Shown in pieces: positions 2,956 through 11,071 of a DNA stretch of 64,000 nucleotides (the first letter of the stretch is position 1; each line of letters opens with the position of its first letter). The notes under the pieces were generated by a model, which did not search any database, was not told the origin of the DNA, and saw only the letters and a list, made by a program, of their open reading frames with translations. The stretch comes from Nannochloropsis oceanica (taxonomy: Eukaryota; Sar; Eustigmatophyceae; Eustigmatales; Monodopsidaceae): contig CP038126.1 in assembly GCA_004519485.1 (NCBI GenBank), positions 124,001 to 188,000 of the forward strand, given 5' to 3'. Position numbers and translations under genes: made by a program.

Positions 2956-4107
2956 CTACTCCTTCTTTACCCCCCCCGCAAGTGCCTTGGCGTGCTGGGC
3001 CTTCCTCTTCTTTTCGTATTTGTCGTAGACCTCTCCCGACAAGCCGAAGAAGACGAGCAGCACCGCCAGCCACTGTTTATTGTTCAGGCTATGGCCGTAC
3101 ATGACCACACTCACCAAGATTGTGAAGAATTTCCTTGTCGTCGTCACCGTCGTCAGGACCAAAGCATCAAAAAATTTGATTGTCAAAAAGATGAAGTTTT
3201 GGCCCAGCGCCGAGGTGAGAGAGAACCAGCACATGGTGCTGAACAGGGCGGGGTGATCCATGCAAAAAGATAGCCCCTCGGAGAACTGCCCCGTGGCCAC
3301 CACCAGGACCGAACAGACCAGCACACCCGCCGTGTTGGTGTAGAACATGAACTCATGCACCGTGGGCTTGCACAGCGTCTTGAGCTTGTCTTGGACCGCG
3401 CCCGTCACCCCATCCATCACCAGCGACAGCAACAGCAGCAGCACCCCGTAAATCGAGTCCCCTCCCTCCTCCTTCCCTCCGTGACCCCCCACGGCAGGAG
3501 CAGCCTTCTTCTTTCCGCCATACATCTGAAACATCGTGATACCCAGCGTCACCAAAAACACACAGAAATACTCCACCGGCCGGTATTTCTTTCCGCGAAT
3601 CAGCACCCCAAACAGCATGACCGGCACCATCTTGCAGCTCTTGCCCAGGGCCTGTGTCGGATACGATACATACTTCAGCGCCTCATTGGAAAAGAGCATG
3701 GCCAGAATATAACTCGTGCCAGTCAATCCGAAATTGAAGAGGGGGATTTTCTGCTTGCTCCTCGAGCCGCCCACCATAAAGCAAAGTGCAAACAAGGCAT
3801 TCACCAAACACTGAACCCACAGCAAAAATAAAGTCGCCGTGAATCGCTCCCCCTGCGGCCCCCGGTATTTAAAAATTTGCTCCTGCAACACCCCAAACGT
3901 CAAATAAGACGCGTAAATCCCCCCGGCACAAATCAGGAGCTTGAGCTCGCTCGGCAGGGCCTCAAGGCTGAATCCTGCTACTTTCTTCCCGTCCTTCCCG
4001 CCTAGGCTTTTATTGGCCCGTTTGTACAAGGCCCAGTCCGCGTAGACAGCCACCAGGGCCACCATCGCCCCTCCTAGGAAAGGAAGGAGGATCTTGGGAC
4101 CTTTCAT
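2956..4107 (-). CDS. SLC35B1: SLC35B1/HUT1-type nucleotide-sugar transporter
   Basis: A 383-residue multi-pass membrane protein of the drug/metabolite transporter superfamily. It matches the SLC35B1 (HUT1, UDP-galactose transporter-related) family, which acts in the ER membrane to exchange nucleotides or nucleotide sugars. Seen in sequence: GVLQEQIFKYRG near residue 70, NEALKYVSYPTQALGKSCKM, PVMLFGVLIRGKKY, a hydrophobic run followed by SLVMDGVTGAVQDKLK, and ALGQNFIFLTIKFFDAL then TTTRKFFTILVSVVMYG, all landmarks of SLC35B1. A Gly/Lys loop (KKKAAPAVGG) sits mid-protein. The C-terminus is Lys-rich but not a strict KKxx signal. I chose the first in-frame ATG (4107). The frame is open for 89 codons upstream without another ATG, so a spliced N-terminal extension is possible: a minus-strand ATG at 4630 is followed after 37 bases by a good GTAAGT donor. 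Confidence 0.9.
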   Translation of the reverse strand: MKGPKILLPFLGGAMVALVAVYADWALYKRANKSLGGKDGKKVAGFSLEALPSELKLLICAGGIYASYLTFGVLQEQIFKYRGPQGERFTATLFLLWVQCLVNALFALCFMVGGSRSKQKIPLFNFGLTGTSYILAMLFSNEALKYVSYPTQALGKSCKMVPVMLFGVLIRGKKYRPVEYFCVFLVTLGITMFQMYGGKKKAAPAVGGHGGKEEGGDSIYGVLLLLLSLVMDGVTGAVQDKLKTLCKPTVHEFMFYTNTAGVLVCSVLVVATGQFSEGLSFCMDHPALFSTMCWFSLTSALGQNFIFLTIKFFDALVLTTVTTTRKFFTILVSVVMYGHSLNNKQWLAVLLVFFGLSGEVYDKYEKKRKAQHAKALAGGVKKE

Positions 4108-5891
4108 TTGTCGGGTTATGTTGGATGGTGTCGGAGAGAGCGTGAGAGTTGTCGTAATCCAAAAAATCACAAATGTTTTTCCCAGACGGAGGGAGAAAAT
4201 ACCCGCAAGTCCGGGTGAGGATGAGGGAGATCCAATCATATGGCCTTTAAGGCCTTGTTTGTGTGGTAGAGAGGGTGTGTTGGTAAATGTGTGCATGTCC
4301 GCGTGTCGTGGCCTCCGCAGCAGTCCAGCAGCCCGGCCGTCCCCAACCACCACGACTTTTGTCCCCGATCCCAACCACTAGCTATGCCCACGCACAACCA
4401 TCGCTGCATGCTTTCAAACCCTGGCTTGCAACAGGCTCCAGCCACATCAGGCTCCAGCACACCAACACATCCACCAAGCGTGCAGGCAGCAGTGCTGGTG
4501 CGGCTGTTGCTGCAGTGGCTGCCATGCAAACTTCAATCCCTCCCTCACACAGCAGCTCATTGATGGAGTGAGAGCATTTGACTTGAGACTTACCGCAAAA
4601 ACACAAGTCCGTGAGGCTGGTTACAGCCATGGCTTCCTGATTTTCTCGAGAACGAAGTGTCTGTGCGTGCGAGAGTAGGGTTGGGTTACCGCTAAGAGTT
4701 TGGGAAGCAAAGGTCGAGAAGGATGGAATGTTGAGGTTTCCGTGCTGCGTTTGTCAAGCGGTCGCTTGTTGGCTGGCTTGGGTCTTCATCCCCATGGGCC
4801 AGGGTGGCCGGATGGAATTACTCGCGGCTTGTCCAGTTTTAAGTCAAGGGTGGGGGCTACATTGCCAGATGATGTCGGAAAAGACCAGGACATAACAACA
4901 GAGACAATGGTTGGCTTTCCAGAACCACAAGGCGCGGCGAGCAGCAAGCAAGCCAAAATAGCCACAGGACCCTGGACTCCAACCCCGCGTGGAACAAAAC
5001 AAAGGACACAAGACACAAGCGAACCAAAAGTAAGCGAGAGCGAGAAAAATAGACACAGGAAACAAAACATCAAAAGGACGGGGATGCGATCATGAGGATA
5101 TGTCTCGGATGGACCGGAGGTGACTATGTGGGCGAGGGGCACATGTGCGTCGAAATACCTTGGAGAGGGTATGGCCCGGCCTTTTCCCTTTTTTATATCC
5201 CTATTTTCTTCTTGTACTTCACCCTTATAATGTGACAACTCAAGCTCCCAAAAAGACTTCATCAAACTAAGCGGAGACTATATTTTGTGGTGTTTTTGCC
5301 TTCTTCTTTTTCTCCCAGTCCTATTTCTTGGTCGCCGCTTTTCGTCGCTGCTCTCGCGTGCAGTATCGGTTTTCCTTGTACACTGCTTTGCTACGAGGGC
5401 CCCGATGCCCCTTCACGATCTTTCTCTCCTCTCCAAACCTCTATTGTTTTCCAGTTCTTTTCCTATTTCTTCTTCGTTCTCCTACGATATATATATTTAT
5501 GTATCAAAAAAGCCATCATGTCAAGGCTCGCACCCAAATATAACTACTACCGCTAGAGATGGAGAAGACATAGAGATGCTTTTCAACCCTCTCCTTTCCT
5601 CTTGGTGATGTTACTTGTGGGTGCTGCCTCTTGTCCAGTCTTTTCTGTTTCGCTCTCTGAACTCATCTCCCCTCTCTTTTTTCTATCTGTCTTTTTGTGG
5701 CCCTCTTTCTTTCTCTCTATCTGCAGCCTGACCAAAAACAACACACAGGACACGCCCATTAATGAAAATTCATAAAGGGCTACAATGCCCCCCCCCCACA
5801 CACACAATCAATTATAAACACACATAAAAGCACCCTCTCAGTCATCCAGTTTAACTCTCTCCAACCCTCTTTAATTCTCTCCCTCCCTCCC
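4108..5891. other. Long intergenic stretch, no confident gene
   Basis: About 1.8 kb between two minus-strand genes: the 5' leader of the SLC35B1-like gene and the 3' region of the desaturase gene. The only coding hint is a minus-strand ATG at 4630 followed by a splice donor (GTAAGT at 4593), which could be a 5' exon of the transporter. Open frames at 4700-5095 (+) and 4786-5265 (-) overlap on opposite strands and look composition-driven. Confidence 0.5.
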
Positions 5892-7385
5892 CTAGGCCAG
5901 AGACCTGTAGTACTTGGCGGTCTCCCACGCTATCTCACTCATACTATTGTAGCTCTTGTAGTTTACCCCAAACTCCTCGCAGGCCGCTTTAACCACCGGC
6001 TGGACCCTCCACAAATGCTCGTGGTTAATCCCGGGAAACAAATGATGCTCAATTTGATAGTTTAACCCGTTTGACAACACAAACCACACCCACGAATGAG
6101 TCGCGAAGTTACTGCTTGTCTCCACCTGCTCCTTCGCCCACGACCTCCCTCCCATGTTAGAAACTGGACGAAAACTCTCTCCCTGCCTACCTCCCTCCTT
6201 CCCGTACTCCTTCATTGCCTCCCCCCCTCCCCCCCCGGCACTGGCGATACTCTTTTCATTTAGGTGGTTGATCTGCGAAAATATCCCGAACAACATCCCA
6301 CATATCGAGACGTACACCACGGGGAACATCCACCACTTGCTCCCTCCCTCCCTCCCCAGCTTACAGCCCGGCACCCAAAACACCAACAGCACGTACAACA
6401 GGAAGTGCGTCACCGCCCTCCCCGCCCCCCTCCACCCCAGGTTGGGAAAGGACATGACGCCGTGCAGCGTCCTGAAGCATAGCAATTTGAGCGGGATCCA
6501 CACGCACTCCCCGAAGGCCACCAGCGAGTACTGCAGGAGGACATAAAGGCGGAATTGCTGCCAGAAGTGCAACTTCTCGATCTTGGCCTGTCTGGCGTGA
6601 GGGCGCGTTAGGACGAAATGGTGGAGGTCCGGGTCGTGGTCGAAGTTATTTGTGAAGGAGTGGTGCGCGAACGTGTGCTGGTGATACCAGAGGAAGGGGG
6701 AGGCGATGAGGGAGATGCCCAGACCGCACAGCCGGTTCACCCAGGGAAGGTGGGAGCAGGCGAAGTGGGAGCCGTCGTGTCCCATGGCGCCCAGGAGCCA
6801 AGAGGAGAGAGAGAAGATGAGGAGGGCAGGGACACTCCCCGAGAGGAAGCCACGGTATGAAAGGAGGACGACGAGGAGGGTGAGGCAGTAGTAGAAACGC
6901 CGCTTCCACGACGCCACTACGTCCACCCCCGCCATCACTGTCTTTACCCTCTCCTTTAAAACCTCGTAAAACAAATCTTCTTCTTCTTCTTCCTCCTCCT
7001 CCTCCTTCCCCTCCTCTTTCTCCTTTTTCACTCCTTCTCCCACTCCTTCCTTCCTCGAGCCCCCCCCCCCTTTCCCTCCCTCCTTCCTGGCCACGCAATA
7101 CTGGTCAAGCACCTCTTCCTCCACCTCCACCCGGTATTTCCCCAGCACCAGTTTATGCTTTCGGGTAAAGGGATGGTAGCTCTCGAACAATGCCGTGCAA
7201 TCCCTCCCTTGTCCCAGGCTTAAAGCGTGAGCTCCACCTGGATGGAGGTGGAGGAAAGCTTCGAGGTCGTAGGCCCTCCCATGGACGTACCAAAGGAGGG
7301 AGGGAGGGACGGAGGGAGGGATGGTTGTGATGGAGGAGGAGGATGGAATGGAGGAGAGTATTTTTCGTTGTGGCTGTTGTTGTTG

Positions 7386-7416
<31 letters not shown>

Positions 7417-8606
7417 TGTTTTTGTTGTTGCTGTTGATGGTGTGTCAGGATCCACGCACGGAGGAAGGCGGGCCAAAAAAGAGACGTGACATTCGAAGCA
7501 TTCAACATGAGCAGCAGGGTAGTCATCACCCTTGTTGCCCACCAGCTAGCCAGCACTTCTCCCGACGGGGAGGACGGGGGGAGGGAGGCGTTGAGGGAGG
7601 AAGGGGCGGAGGAGTAGATGGACAGGAGGTGCCAGGCGAGGAGGGCGGCGTGAGGGAGGAGGCGGGCGGGGAAGACGAGGACCGTCTCGAGCATTTGGGT
7701 GGTGAAGAGAATACCAGAGCACTCAAGAGCGAAGAGACCAACGAGGTCATGGATGGATTCAGAGAGGAGGTGAAAGGCTGGAAGGACTACGAGGAGGTCG
7801 GCGTTGAGAGGGAAGCCCTTGCAGATGGCGGTGATGGAGAGTACAAGGGTGGTGGCCCCCTGGAGGGCGTAGGGGATCCCGCGGGTGTATCGGTAGGGGG
7901 GAGAGGTGTAAAGGCGTTTCCAGGTCTTGTCCCAGAGGTCGAAGAGGAGGAAGCCGCATGTCATGGTGAGTTTCAGGATGGCAGAAGCCCCGAAGAGGGC
8001 CGCGAGGCCCATGGCCAAAGAATGCGCGATGCACACCAGGCCATTCGACAAGCGGGCGGTCTGATTCGCCTTGAGCGGTCCGTTCCAATACGGGGGGATG
8101 GCCACCACGTCCAGCATGAAGCAGAAACAGGCGTAGGCGACCAGTCCCGCTAGCACCACCCAGAGCTCCTGCTTGTTCACGACGAGCGCCAAGAACAGCA
8201 GAGCCCACAACGCCGCCAAAAGTGCCGTCCACCGATCTGTGCCCACCGTCAACTCCCTCAACCGAGCCACCAAGGCCTCCTCTTCAGCTGCTGCGGCGGC
8301 TGCGGCGGCAGAGGAGGAGGAGGGGGATGGTTGGATCCTTCCTACTATGCTACCGTTGCTGAGCTCCGCACCTGCTGCTGCTGCTGCTGCTGGGATTTTC
8401 GAGAGCTCCTCGAACTCCTTTGGCAATCCTGATATCACAGTCCGTACCATCTCCAAGTCCTCCTTCTGTTGCTGTACACCAGATCCGCCACCGCTGCTGC
8501 TGCTGCTGCTGCGTGGCGAAGCGATAGGCGGCGACGTGCAGCAGGTACTGCTGGTGCGTGTTGTTTGAGCCGGCCGTCGACGCCGCAACAAGGCCCCGAG
8601 CACCAT
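5892..8606 (-). CDS. Fusion: TLC-like membrane domain + cytochrome b5 + front-end fatty acid desaturase
   Basis: A single uninterrupted frame of about 904 residues. Order: a low-complexity N-terminus; a multi-TM segment (about 165-390) with SNGLVCIAHSLAMG, a following F-D-L-W motif and a late L-E-C-S motif that resembles TLC (TRAM/LAG1/CLN8) domains; a poly-Gln tract (about 392-412); a cytochrome b5 domain with heme motif HPGG at about 455-458; a Lys/Glu-rich linker; and a desaturase domain with the three His boxes HDGSH (about 610), HTFAHH (about 644) and QIEHH (about 851). The b5 domain plus Gln in the third box is diagnostic of membrane front-end (acyl-lipid delta-4/5/6/8) desaturases, which act in the ER using b5-delivered electrons. 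Regiospecificity cannot be assigned. Ordinary family members are about 430-520 residues, so the N-terminal membrane half is extra. The ATG at 8606 is the best-placed start; the frame continues upstream without a convincing ATG. Confidence 0.85.
7373..7434 (-). repeat. CAG/CAA tract coding poly-Gln in the desaturase fusion
   Basis: A run of CAG/CAA codons, interrupted by one Lys codon, separates the last helix of the TLC-like half from the cytochrome b5 domain. It looks like a repeat-expanded linker. Confidence 0.85.
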
Positions 8607-9250
8607 GCTTTGAGTACCTGTGCCGATCGTGAGGGATGGTGTGTTGCGAGAGAGAGAAAGAGAGAGAGAGGTGAAAGGGGAGCGCCACAGGCCGCCTGGC
8701 GTATGAGATGACGCGTGCGTGTGCTCTTTCGGCTCTTCCGTAAGCAGTAGCCGGGACATACACCTACAGCCAGCCGTGTTCATATGCAAACATAGTCCCA
8801 AATCCAGCAGGGATTATTCAGAAGCGTCGTGCATCTGTTTCTTGGCCTTAGTCCCTCATGTTGGTTTTGCGGTGTGTGCGGTCGTACGTCTCCGTGCGCG
8901 TCGCCCGCGCCACCTCACGCATCTTCGGCCGACAAGGGCAAAGTCCATAACGACAAAATAAATTGGGGTGATCTTAAGCATACATCTACAACCAGTGCCT
9001 GGGCTTTAAGCGGAGGAAAATTGCATTCATAAGTGACTGTATGGCACATTAAAGGATGCCCAAATCGAGTGCTAGTGATACGGTCTTGCTTCGGTGATGA
9101 GGCACGCACGTTCATGTCGACATACATGGTTCTCGATTTCTAATGAGTAATCCCAAGACGGGAAGGAGAGGAAAGAGTAACGAGGAGGGCAAGAAATTTC
9201 CATTCAGCTGTTATGTCTTCTTATCCTCAGTACTTTCGAAGTCATCGGCT
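8607..9250. other. Intergenic region upstream of the desaturase gene
   Basis: Contains the 5' leader of the desaturase fusion gene and the short 3' region of the RRP45 gene, both on the minus strand. It includes a short GA-rich tract near 8650-8672. No supported gene seen. Confidence 0.5.
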
Positions 9251-11071
9251 TCACCTCTTCCCTCCTTGTTTGCCCTTGCCCTTGCTGATTGCACCACGGG
9301 CCTTCTCACCACCTCTGTTCATGCGGGGCTTCTTGACAGCCGCCCGCAAGTCATCCCCTACCCCGTCATCCTCGTCCTCCTCATTCTCCATATCTTCGAG
9401 CGTCACCTTGGCTCGTCGGCTAGCGAGGGATGCACTGCCTTTAGATGCCGCTGCTTGTCCTGGAGATGCTGCTCCTACTCCTACTCCTACTCCTTTTCCC
9501 GCTGCAGAGTCGTCGTCTCCCTCTGCAAATTCAGACATCATCACCACGGCCGTCTCCTCCTCCTCCTCCTCGTCTTCACCGTCACTATCCTCTTTCTTCT
9601 TTCCCCCTTGCTTCCTCATCTTCCTCTCGGCTGCTCCTCTTGACGCTACAGTGTCTCCTCGTTCCCCACCCTGCCCAGCCTTGCCTAACGGGCTACTAGA
9701 CTTGAATCCTCCTTCCTTCTTTTCACCCACCACTCCATCCTCTTCAACGTCCACGTCCATTCCTCTGTTATCTGCCGCTACTGTCGCCGCACCTCCTTCT
9801 GCTGCTGTTGCTGCTGCTGCTGCTACTGCCGCTGCAGCTACTTTCTCTCCCGCCTTCTCTTCCTCCTGCTCCTTCCTATACCTCTCCGCTTCCATCGCCG
9901 CCTGCTCCAACAGAGACAAACTTCTTGTCTCTTCCTCCACGTTCACAGGTGGCTTCTCTGACCCCTCCCGCACTTTGATTGGCACGTGCAACTCCGCAAA
10001 AGCCAAATGATCAATCCCCGCAGGCATCGGCCCTCCTTCCCCTCCTCCTCTTCCTCCCTCTCCTCCTCCTCCCGCTACGATTTCCGCCTCTGCTCTTGCA
10101 GGTAATACGTCCACGGACGCCGTCCCCCTTACAAACTTCAATCTCTCCTCCTTCGCCTGTCTGTCTGCTGCCTCCAGCGAGTTTTGCAACAGCGCATGCC
10201 ACTCACTCACCTTCTCCGACGCGACCTCCGCCCACTCCACTAGGCTGGAGGGCGGAAGTGGCAACCCCCCAATTTTCTGCAAGGCACACAATTCCTTGTG
10301 TACATTTATGCAATAGGTGAGCCTACCACCCATGACGGCTTCTTCGCGATGGGTAGGGTCTACTGCGGCTAGCACCGGAGAGTCAGAGAACAAACCGAAG
10401 GTCACGCAAATGGGGACATGATGGATAGGTAGGGCCGACGGCTCCTTCTCAAAAGAATGATGCACGATCACGCTAGCACTGGCCATGCCTGTTTCGCCTT
10501 TGCTGCTGCTGCTACTACTACTAATGCTGTTGATACTGTCACCAGTTAAGACAGTCACTTCAGGCAGGCGGAAGTGGAGGAGGGCGGCAACAGTGGCTAG
10601 ACAGGCAGCATCGACCACATTCCCACAATCATCCAAGATCCTCACATCACACCTCAAACTCCAAACCTTGTTCCCAGCAATCACACACAAAGCCTCCGTG
10701 TCCAACGCCCTACTTTGCCTCAAACATCTCTCAATAACACGATCGACCTCTACTAACGTAGGATTACTCCTGGCGTTATCAATCCCCAATGTCGCCATAG
10801 GTGAATACTCAATATTTAAGTTCAAAAAACCTTCAGTTGGTCTGTCAGGATAAGGAGGGGTCAGCTCGCTAGTCACGACCGTCAGAACCCTTGTCTTGCC
10901 TAATTGAATCTCGGCGCTGGCTTGACCCTCAGCTCGTGCATAGGTGACTCGAAGGGGGCGAGTGTCGAGGGGCGTGCGGCCGTCAGCTCTGAATTCGGAA
11001 TCCTTTAAGGCGGTGAGTATGAAGGCGCGTTCATTGAGGCTCATGTCCTCGCCTTGTTTGATGACGGACAT
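9251..11071 (-). CDS. RRP45: Exosome complex subunit RRP45 (EXOSC9), RNase PH-like
   Basis: A 606-residue single-exon protein. Residues about 1-300 form an RNase PH-type domain: MSLNERAFILTALKDSEFRADGR at the start, RVTYARAEGQASAEIQLGKT, NLNIEYSPMATLGI, VIERCLRQSRALDTEALC, and VRILDDCGNVVDAACLA. These are characteristic of EXOSC9/RRP45, a structural, catalytically inactive ring subunit of the nuclear and cytoplasmic exosome that handles 3'-5' RNA processing and decay. The remaining half is a Glu/Ala/Ser-rich low-complexity tail ending in a basic Gly-Lys cluster that may act in nuclear localisation. The length exceeds human EXOSC9 (about 440 residues) through this tail. The start ATG at 11071 fits the family N-terminus. 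Confidence 0.93.
   Translation of the reverse strand: MSVIKQGEDMSLNERAFILTALKDSEFRADGRTPLDTRPLRVTYARAEGQASAEIQLGKTRVLTVVTSELTPPYPDRPTEGFLNLNIEYSPMATLGIDNARSNPTLVEVDRVIERCLRQSRALDTEALCVIAGNKVWSLRCDVRILDDCGNVVDAACLATVAALLHFRLPEVTVLTGDSINSISSSSSSSKGETGMASASVIVHHSFEKEPSALPIHHVPICVTFGLFSDSPVLAAVDPTHREEAVMGGRLTYCINVHKELCALQKIGGLPLPPSSLVEWAEVASEKVSEWHALLQNSLEAADRQAKEERLKFVRGTASVDVLPARAEAEIVAGGGGEGGRGGGEGGPMPAGIDHLAFAELHVPIKVREGSEKPPVNVEEETRSLSLLEQAAMEAERYRKEQEEEKAGEKVAAAAVAAAAATAAEGGAATVAADNRGMDVDVEEDGVVGEKKEGGFKSSSPLGKAGQGGERGDTVASRGAAERKMRKQGGKKKEDSDGEDEEEEEETAVVMMSEFAEGDDDSAAGKGVGVGVGAASPGQAAASKGSASLASRRAKVTLEDMENEEDEDDGVGDDLRAAVKKPRMNRGGEKARGAISKGKGKQGGKR

Follow-up and report, generated by a model that had tools for sequence, protein, structure and literature searches.

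A likely fusion of a membrane module to a cytochrome b5 front-end desaturase in Nannochloropsis oceanica

Introduction

Does a gene of Nannochloropsis oceanica, a model for making EPA, provide a front-end desaturase with a multi-pass membrane module of its own, and does that module belong to the TLC family? The question is raised by an open frame that shares with b5 front-end desaturases of the Delta5/Delta6 type the order of b5 domain with HPGG, HxxxH, second box and QxxHH, but that differs from them in having about 390 residues, a hydrophobic module and a poly-Gln tract, ahead of b5. Such an enzyme would hint at how substrates reach front-end desaturases.

The N. oceanica EPA pathway comprises Delta12, Delta6, Delta5 and omega-3 enzymes according to excerpts of PMC5785352, and the EPA enzymes named in the excerpts of two papers on this alga are Delta9, Delta12, Delta6, Delta5 and omega-3 (PMC5785352, PMC3499364). 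Among the literature matches listed, judged by titles and the openings of abstracts, no fusion of a TLC domain to a desaturase was reported.

Results

One open frame with a b5 front-end desaturase at its C-terminal end

The window, that is, the whole 64,000-nucleotide stretch analysed (contig C28:124001–188000, in a searched genome of 29.26 Mb and 32 contigs), has a G+C content of 49–59% across 4-kb segments. On its reverse strand, at 5892..8606, a frame of 904 amino acids runs from an ATG at 8606 to a stop at 5892 with no in-frame stop between them, as the initial annotation had stated in describing one unbroken frame through module, poly-Gln, b5 and desaturase. The same frame is open 5′ of 8606 and holds additional in-frame ATGs at 8759 and 8783; the real start is therefore uncertain. 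The same-strand neighbours, an RNase PH-domain gene (9251–11071) and a gene for a UAA-family nucleotide-sugar transporter (2956–4374), are neither of them directly relevant to lipid chemistry.

From the N-terminus, and all on the reverse strand, the parts of the protein are a low-complexity stretch (residues 1–108, 8283..8606), the hydrophobic module (residues 109–392, 7431..8282; hydrophobic over about residues 120–390) with three strictly called membrane segments (126–144, 150–168 and 189–207), a His-His and poly-Gln stretch (residues 389–411, 7374..7442), the cytochrome b5 domain (residues 439–488, 7143..7292), a linker rich in Gly, Lys and Glu that joins b5 to the desaturase (residues 500–560, 6927..7109), and a desaturase domain of front-end type (residues 594–886, 5949..6827).

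Both C-terminal domain assignments made earlier were upheld: the Pfam FA_desaturase profile matched residues 594–886 with E 9.8e-30 (104.6 bits against a cut-off of 29.7), and Cyt-b5 matched residues 439–488 with E 4.7e-10. The three His boxes read HDGSH (610–614), QHTFAHH (643–649) and QIEHH (851–855), the first His of the last being replaced by Gln; excerpts of PMC5785352 give this substitution as a property of front-end desaturases and cytochrome b5 as their electron donor. Box two is HxxxHH, unlike the usual front-end type, and has the same form in the paralogue L014. Candidates for the heme-binding His residues lie in HPGG (455–458) and at H478. The b5 match spans profile positions 16–65 of 74, the first 15 being without a match, and this unrecognisable N-terminus sets the domain apart from those of other b5 front-end desaturases and counts against the single-gene explanation favoured below; L018, another b5-desaturase of this genome, also matches the Pfam b5 profile only from position 15. 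The b5 domain is N-terminal to the desaturase, yet internal to the protein as a whole. By analogy with enzymes of this type, the C-terminal half should act as an ER acyl desaturase. Sequence searches found no PDB match to the desaturase part at E≤10, and no relative of the whole protein in IMG/VR in a scan reaching close relatives.

FA_desaturase matched the genome 14 times at E≤1, this gene included and some matches being fragments of one gene, and four front-end-type loci were compared with it. The closest of the four was L016 on contig C3 (32% identity over 486 residues, E 4e-72), followed by L014 (E 2e-20), which we take to be the Delta5 desaturase, L013 (E 1e-10), presumably the Delta6 enzyme, and L018 (E 1e-10). 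The alignment with L016 begins at LWY(V/I)HG(R/K)AYDL, and L016 (C3:298296–302126), in exons read by hand, starts shortly before b5; to that extent it agrees with the earlier remark that known front-end desaturases start near this domain. An intron after HPG splits the b5 domain of L016, whereas the same intron is absent from the 904-residue gene. Upstream of L016, over 3 kb, tblastn with residues 1–392 returned a single 8-residue match (E 0.85), and four hydrophobic segments were scattered over three sense frames, with no module detectable.

L018 (C7:608952–612797) has HRLHH as its third box, in place of QxxHH.

Sequence and structure tests of a TLC identity

The most probable of the alternatives is that the module is a true but divergent TLC domain, TLCD/CLN8-like and without a His-His pair, that couples acyl-chain handling or phospholipid remodelling to front-end desaturation. 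It is attractive, which is no evidence in itself, because TLCD1/2 and, in the worm, FLD-1 restrict phospholipids that contain PUFAs (excerpts of PMC6279351), a role which would make the pairing biologically sensible; it is possible, but somewhat on the unlikely side. The initial annotation had likened the module to TLC proteins by motif resemblance, and a profile search did not bear this out: Pfam TLC (PF03798), searched with HMMER's filters switched on, matched neither the whole protein nor its sub-segments at E≤10. The same profile had 10 matches in the genome, seven of them above the family cut-off and several being exons of one gene; the module was absent from all 10.

More specific comparisons used the alga's own TLC proteins, an alignment of which (A1) finds CLN8 in PDB with E 8.4e-12, so that the family yardstick is sound; in IMG/VR and in GTDB contigs, scanned to the depth of close relatives, A1 found no relative. 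With hmmsearch, the module scored 0.7 bits against a profile of six members, a value equalled or exceeded by 289/1000 shuffled sequences, and 4.0 bits against a profile of five members (43/1000 shuffles). By hhalign the corresponding counts were 27/200 and 7/200, at a probability below 1%, and the best match fell on the stretch with the His and GFLLFD, on which the block search also landed; this peak speaks for a TLC domain, the probability against one.

Six sequence blocks drawn from the genome's TLC proteins and CLN8, and searched for in order, gave the module a total of 20.8, compared with shuffle means of 7.4–11.1, in favour of the TLC reading, although the blocks had been picked after a by-eye look at the sequence, a bias in the same direction. 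Against that reading, shuffles reached the total in 90, 72 and 28 of 1000 cases (block sizes 8, 15 and 30), the reversed module scored 17.8, and three true TLC members, each left out in turn, scored 52–95. The matches follow the family order (IAHS, GFLLFD, YALQ, LLSES, FPAR and the sixth place), two of the six (YALQ and LLSES) scoring below zero; the sixth falls on SWWATR rather than on the LFWP (376–379) that had been matched by eye only. The resulting weak trail of TLC-like motifs from the block search is RLSNGLVCIAHS (185–196), GFLLFD (218–223), HLLSES (279–284) and FPAR (312–315). Pairwise z-scores between the module and six of the genome's TLC proteins ranged from −1.31 to 1.51, as against 4.1–7.6 in four of five true TLC pairs (1.38 in the fifth). 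Judged by sequence, then, the module lies within, or only slightly above, the shuffled controls in all four tests.

Ceramide synthase activity depends on a His-His pair. This pair was present in 5/5 proteins or fragments compared (four from this genome, plus the PDB CLN8), whereas the corresponding position in the module reads YALQ (aligned block YALQGATT); because the pair is absent, a ceramide-synthase-like role is less likely. Set beside the TLC family (PF03798: TRAM, Lag1, CLN8, TLCD), the module thus shares weak motifs in order and a helical, hydrophobic character, but has neither a significant sequence match nor the His-His pair.

A single-sequence AlphaFold model of the module was all-helical and of low confidence (pLDDT 47.6, pTM 0.28). 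The b5 domain, modelled in the same way as a control, was equally poor (pLDDT 47.4), and the fold test is therefore without power either way. Of the 259 Foldseek matches to the poor module model at E≤10, none reached E≤0.001, and the titles of the best 50 included no TLC protein. What stands of the earlier description of the module is a hydrophobic region of several segments that may or may not be a TLC domain, the sequence tests having fallen short of significance and the structure prediction being no better than that of a known domain. The fuller proposal, in which a TLCD/CLN8-like domain lacking His-His and a b5 front-end desaturase make one protein that would both select or sense and desaturate acyl lipids, is unlikely.

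Elsewhere in the genome, a single open frame at L004 (C10:747191–750733) encodes a TLC protein resembling CLN8, whose PDB sequence it matches by phmmer with E 3.9e-06.

Continuity between the module and the b5 domain

A further alternative is that the locus makes two products, an upstream membrane protein and a b5-desaturase started separately at an ATG at 7526 or 7508. Both ATGs are in frame, and a start at either would keep b5 and drop most of the module, which weighs against the single-gene explanation; the product would have an N-terminal hydrophobic stretch and the poly-Gln ahead of b5, and the lack of a module in L016 points the same way. Against two products, no stop codon closes the upstream part, and none of AATAAA, ATTAAA and TGTAA occurs before the desaturase, the sole such signal being a TGTAA at 6365, with the proviso that the alga's own signals may differ. 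Production of two separate proteins is, overall, decidedly unlikely.

In the 904-residue gene, the LW of LWYxHGxAYDL runs straight on from a Pro/Ser-rich linker. From the end of the poly-Gln to this LW there is no AG, hence no splice acceptor dinucleotide, nor does any frame contain an ATG there; the first in-frame one further on, at 6935, is past b5. Donor-like sites were sought by the rule GTRNGT, derived from five introns read by hand (in L005, L006, where it is presumed, and L008, and two in L016). The stretch from 8606 to the b5 core has a single such site, at 7459, which lies about 85 bases from the last CAG of the repeat; introns of N. oceanica CCMP1779 have a mean of 230 bp (excerpts of PMC3499364). 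The background density of GTRNGT is 1.88 per kb, at which its scarcity in this stretch is by itself unremarkable. Sites that fit the donor rule less well, lacking its last T (GTRNG), occur at 8447, 8371, 8345, 8246, 8208, 8036 and 7542, and acceptor-like sites at 7861 and 7779 as well as in the CAG repeat. Because these weaker donors and acceptors are present, an intron may lie inside the module or run from 7542 to the CAG repeat, and they count against the single-gene explanation to that degree. No strong donor is paired with a suitable acceptor between the two halves.

Coding status of the module

Chance is unlikely to account for the open frame of the N-terminal region. When residues 109–396 (288 codons) were shuffled with dinucleotides preserved, 14/5000 sequences stayed open and 5/5000 matched the real count of membrane segments (three or more), three of them at the strict cut-off; for residues 109–330, 38/3000 stayed open and none had three segments. 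The coding case for residues 250–396 alone is weak, 242/3000 shuffles being open and the real sequence having no segment above the cut-off.

Codon statistics had too little power to decide on coding. With a Markov coding score, for which 46 long ORFs served as training set, the gene's frame came top in 22/33 sliding windows (8801 to 5741, a few of them beyond the ORF), though in none of the five starting at 7991–7631. A synonymous-codon score, of weak power in that it ranked the true frame best in 177/357 training segments, placed residues 109–225 at the 79th percentile of training segments and residues 215–330 at the 1st, with an antisense frame higher there; it was also low (4th percentile) in residues 586–675, a stretch that is certainly desaturase. 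The codon statistics thus give the middle of the module no support, a point against the single-gene explanation. In L007 and L010 (contig C6), CT-rich stretches between the exons of a TLC gene translate as long PPSLPPSL frames, and since introns such as these can be read as open frames, an open frame says little by itself about coding in this genome.

Searched for at E≤10, relatives of the module were absent from the rest of its genome, where it occurs once, and none appeared in IMG/VR in a scan that reached close relatives only, which again counts against the single-gene explanation; NCBIfam had no match to the module, and PDB, searched by sequence at E≤10, none to the N-terminal region. Taken together, the module is probably coding.

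It is decidedly unlikely that the assembly is falsely joined where the CAG repeat lies, or that the module region codes for protein only in part or not at all: the join does sit at a repeat, codon scores are poor in mid-module and CT-rich introns can mimic long frames, but the window holds no Ns, the frame is preserved across the repeat, the module is single-copy, an open frame with membrane segments is rare in shuffles, and the candidate splice sites are only weak.

Discussion

It is likely that a membrane module of unassigned family is genuinely fused to a front-end desaturase. We favour, as probable, an explanation in which one nuclear gene gives rise to a three-part membrane protein, consisting of an N-terminal multi-pass module, a tethered b5 domain and a front-end acyl desaturase, which we infer to be expressed as a single polypeptide. 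The protein would reside in the ER membrane, where its b5 domain would accept electrons from NADH:b5 reductase and hand them to a di-iron centre bound by the three His boxes; the desaturase is predicted to introduce its double bond between an existing one and the carboxyl end of the chain. The module may be a substrate-binding, substrate-presenting or membrane-sensing part within the membrane, with the poly-Gln as a flexible tether that keeps it close to the desaturase.

A TLC-like module would tie desaturation directly to a class of proteins linked genetically to PUFA-containing phospholipids, and a fusion with a TLCD/CLN8-like domain in particular would form a built-in link between the synthesis of polyunsaturated fat and membrane remodelling.

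One minor observation concerns the b5 core, which on the reverse strand is flanked at 7290–7239 by a donor-like GTACGT and an acceptor-like CCATCCAG. An intron here (donor-like site 7290, acceptor-like site 7239) was considered and rejected, the stretch being conserved as protein in L016. The acceptor-like site stands at the position where the L016 intron ends, and is perhaps the trace of a lost intron.
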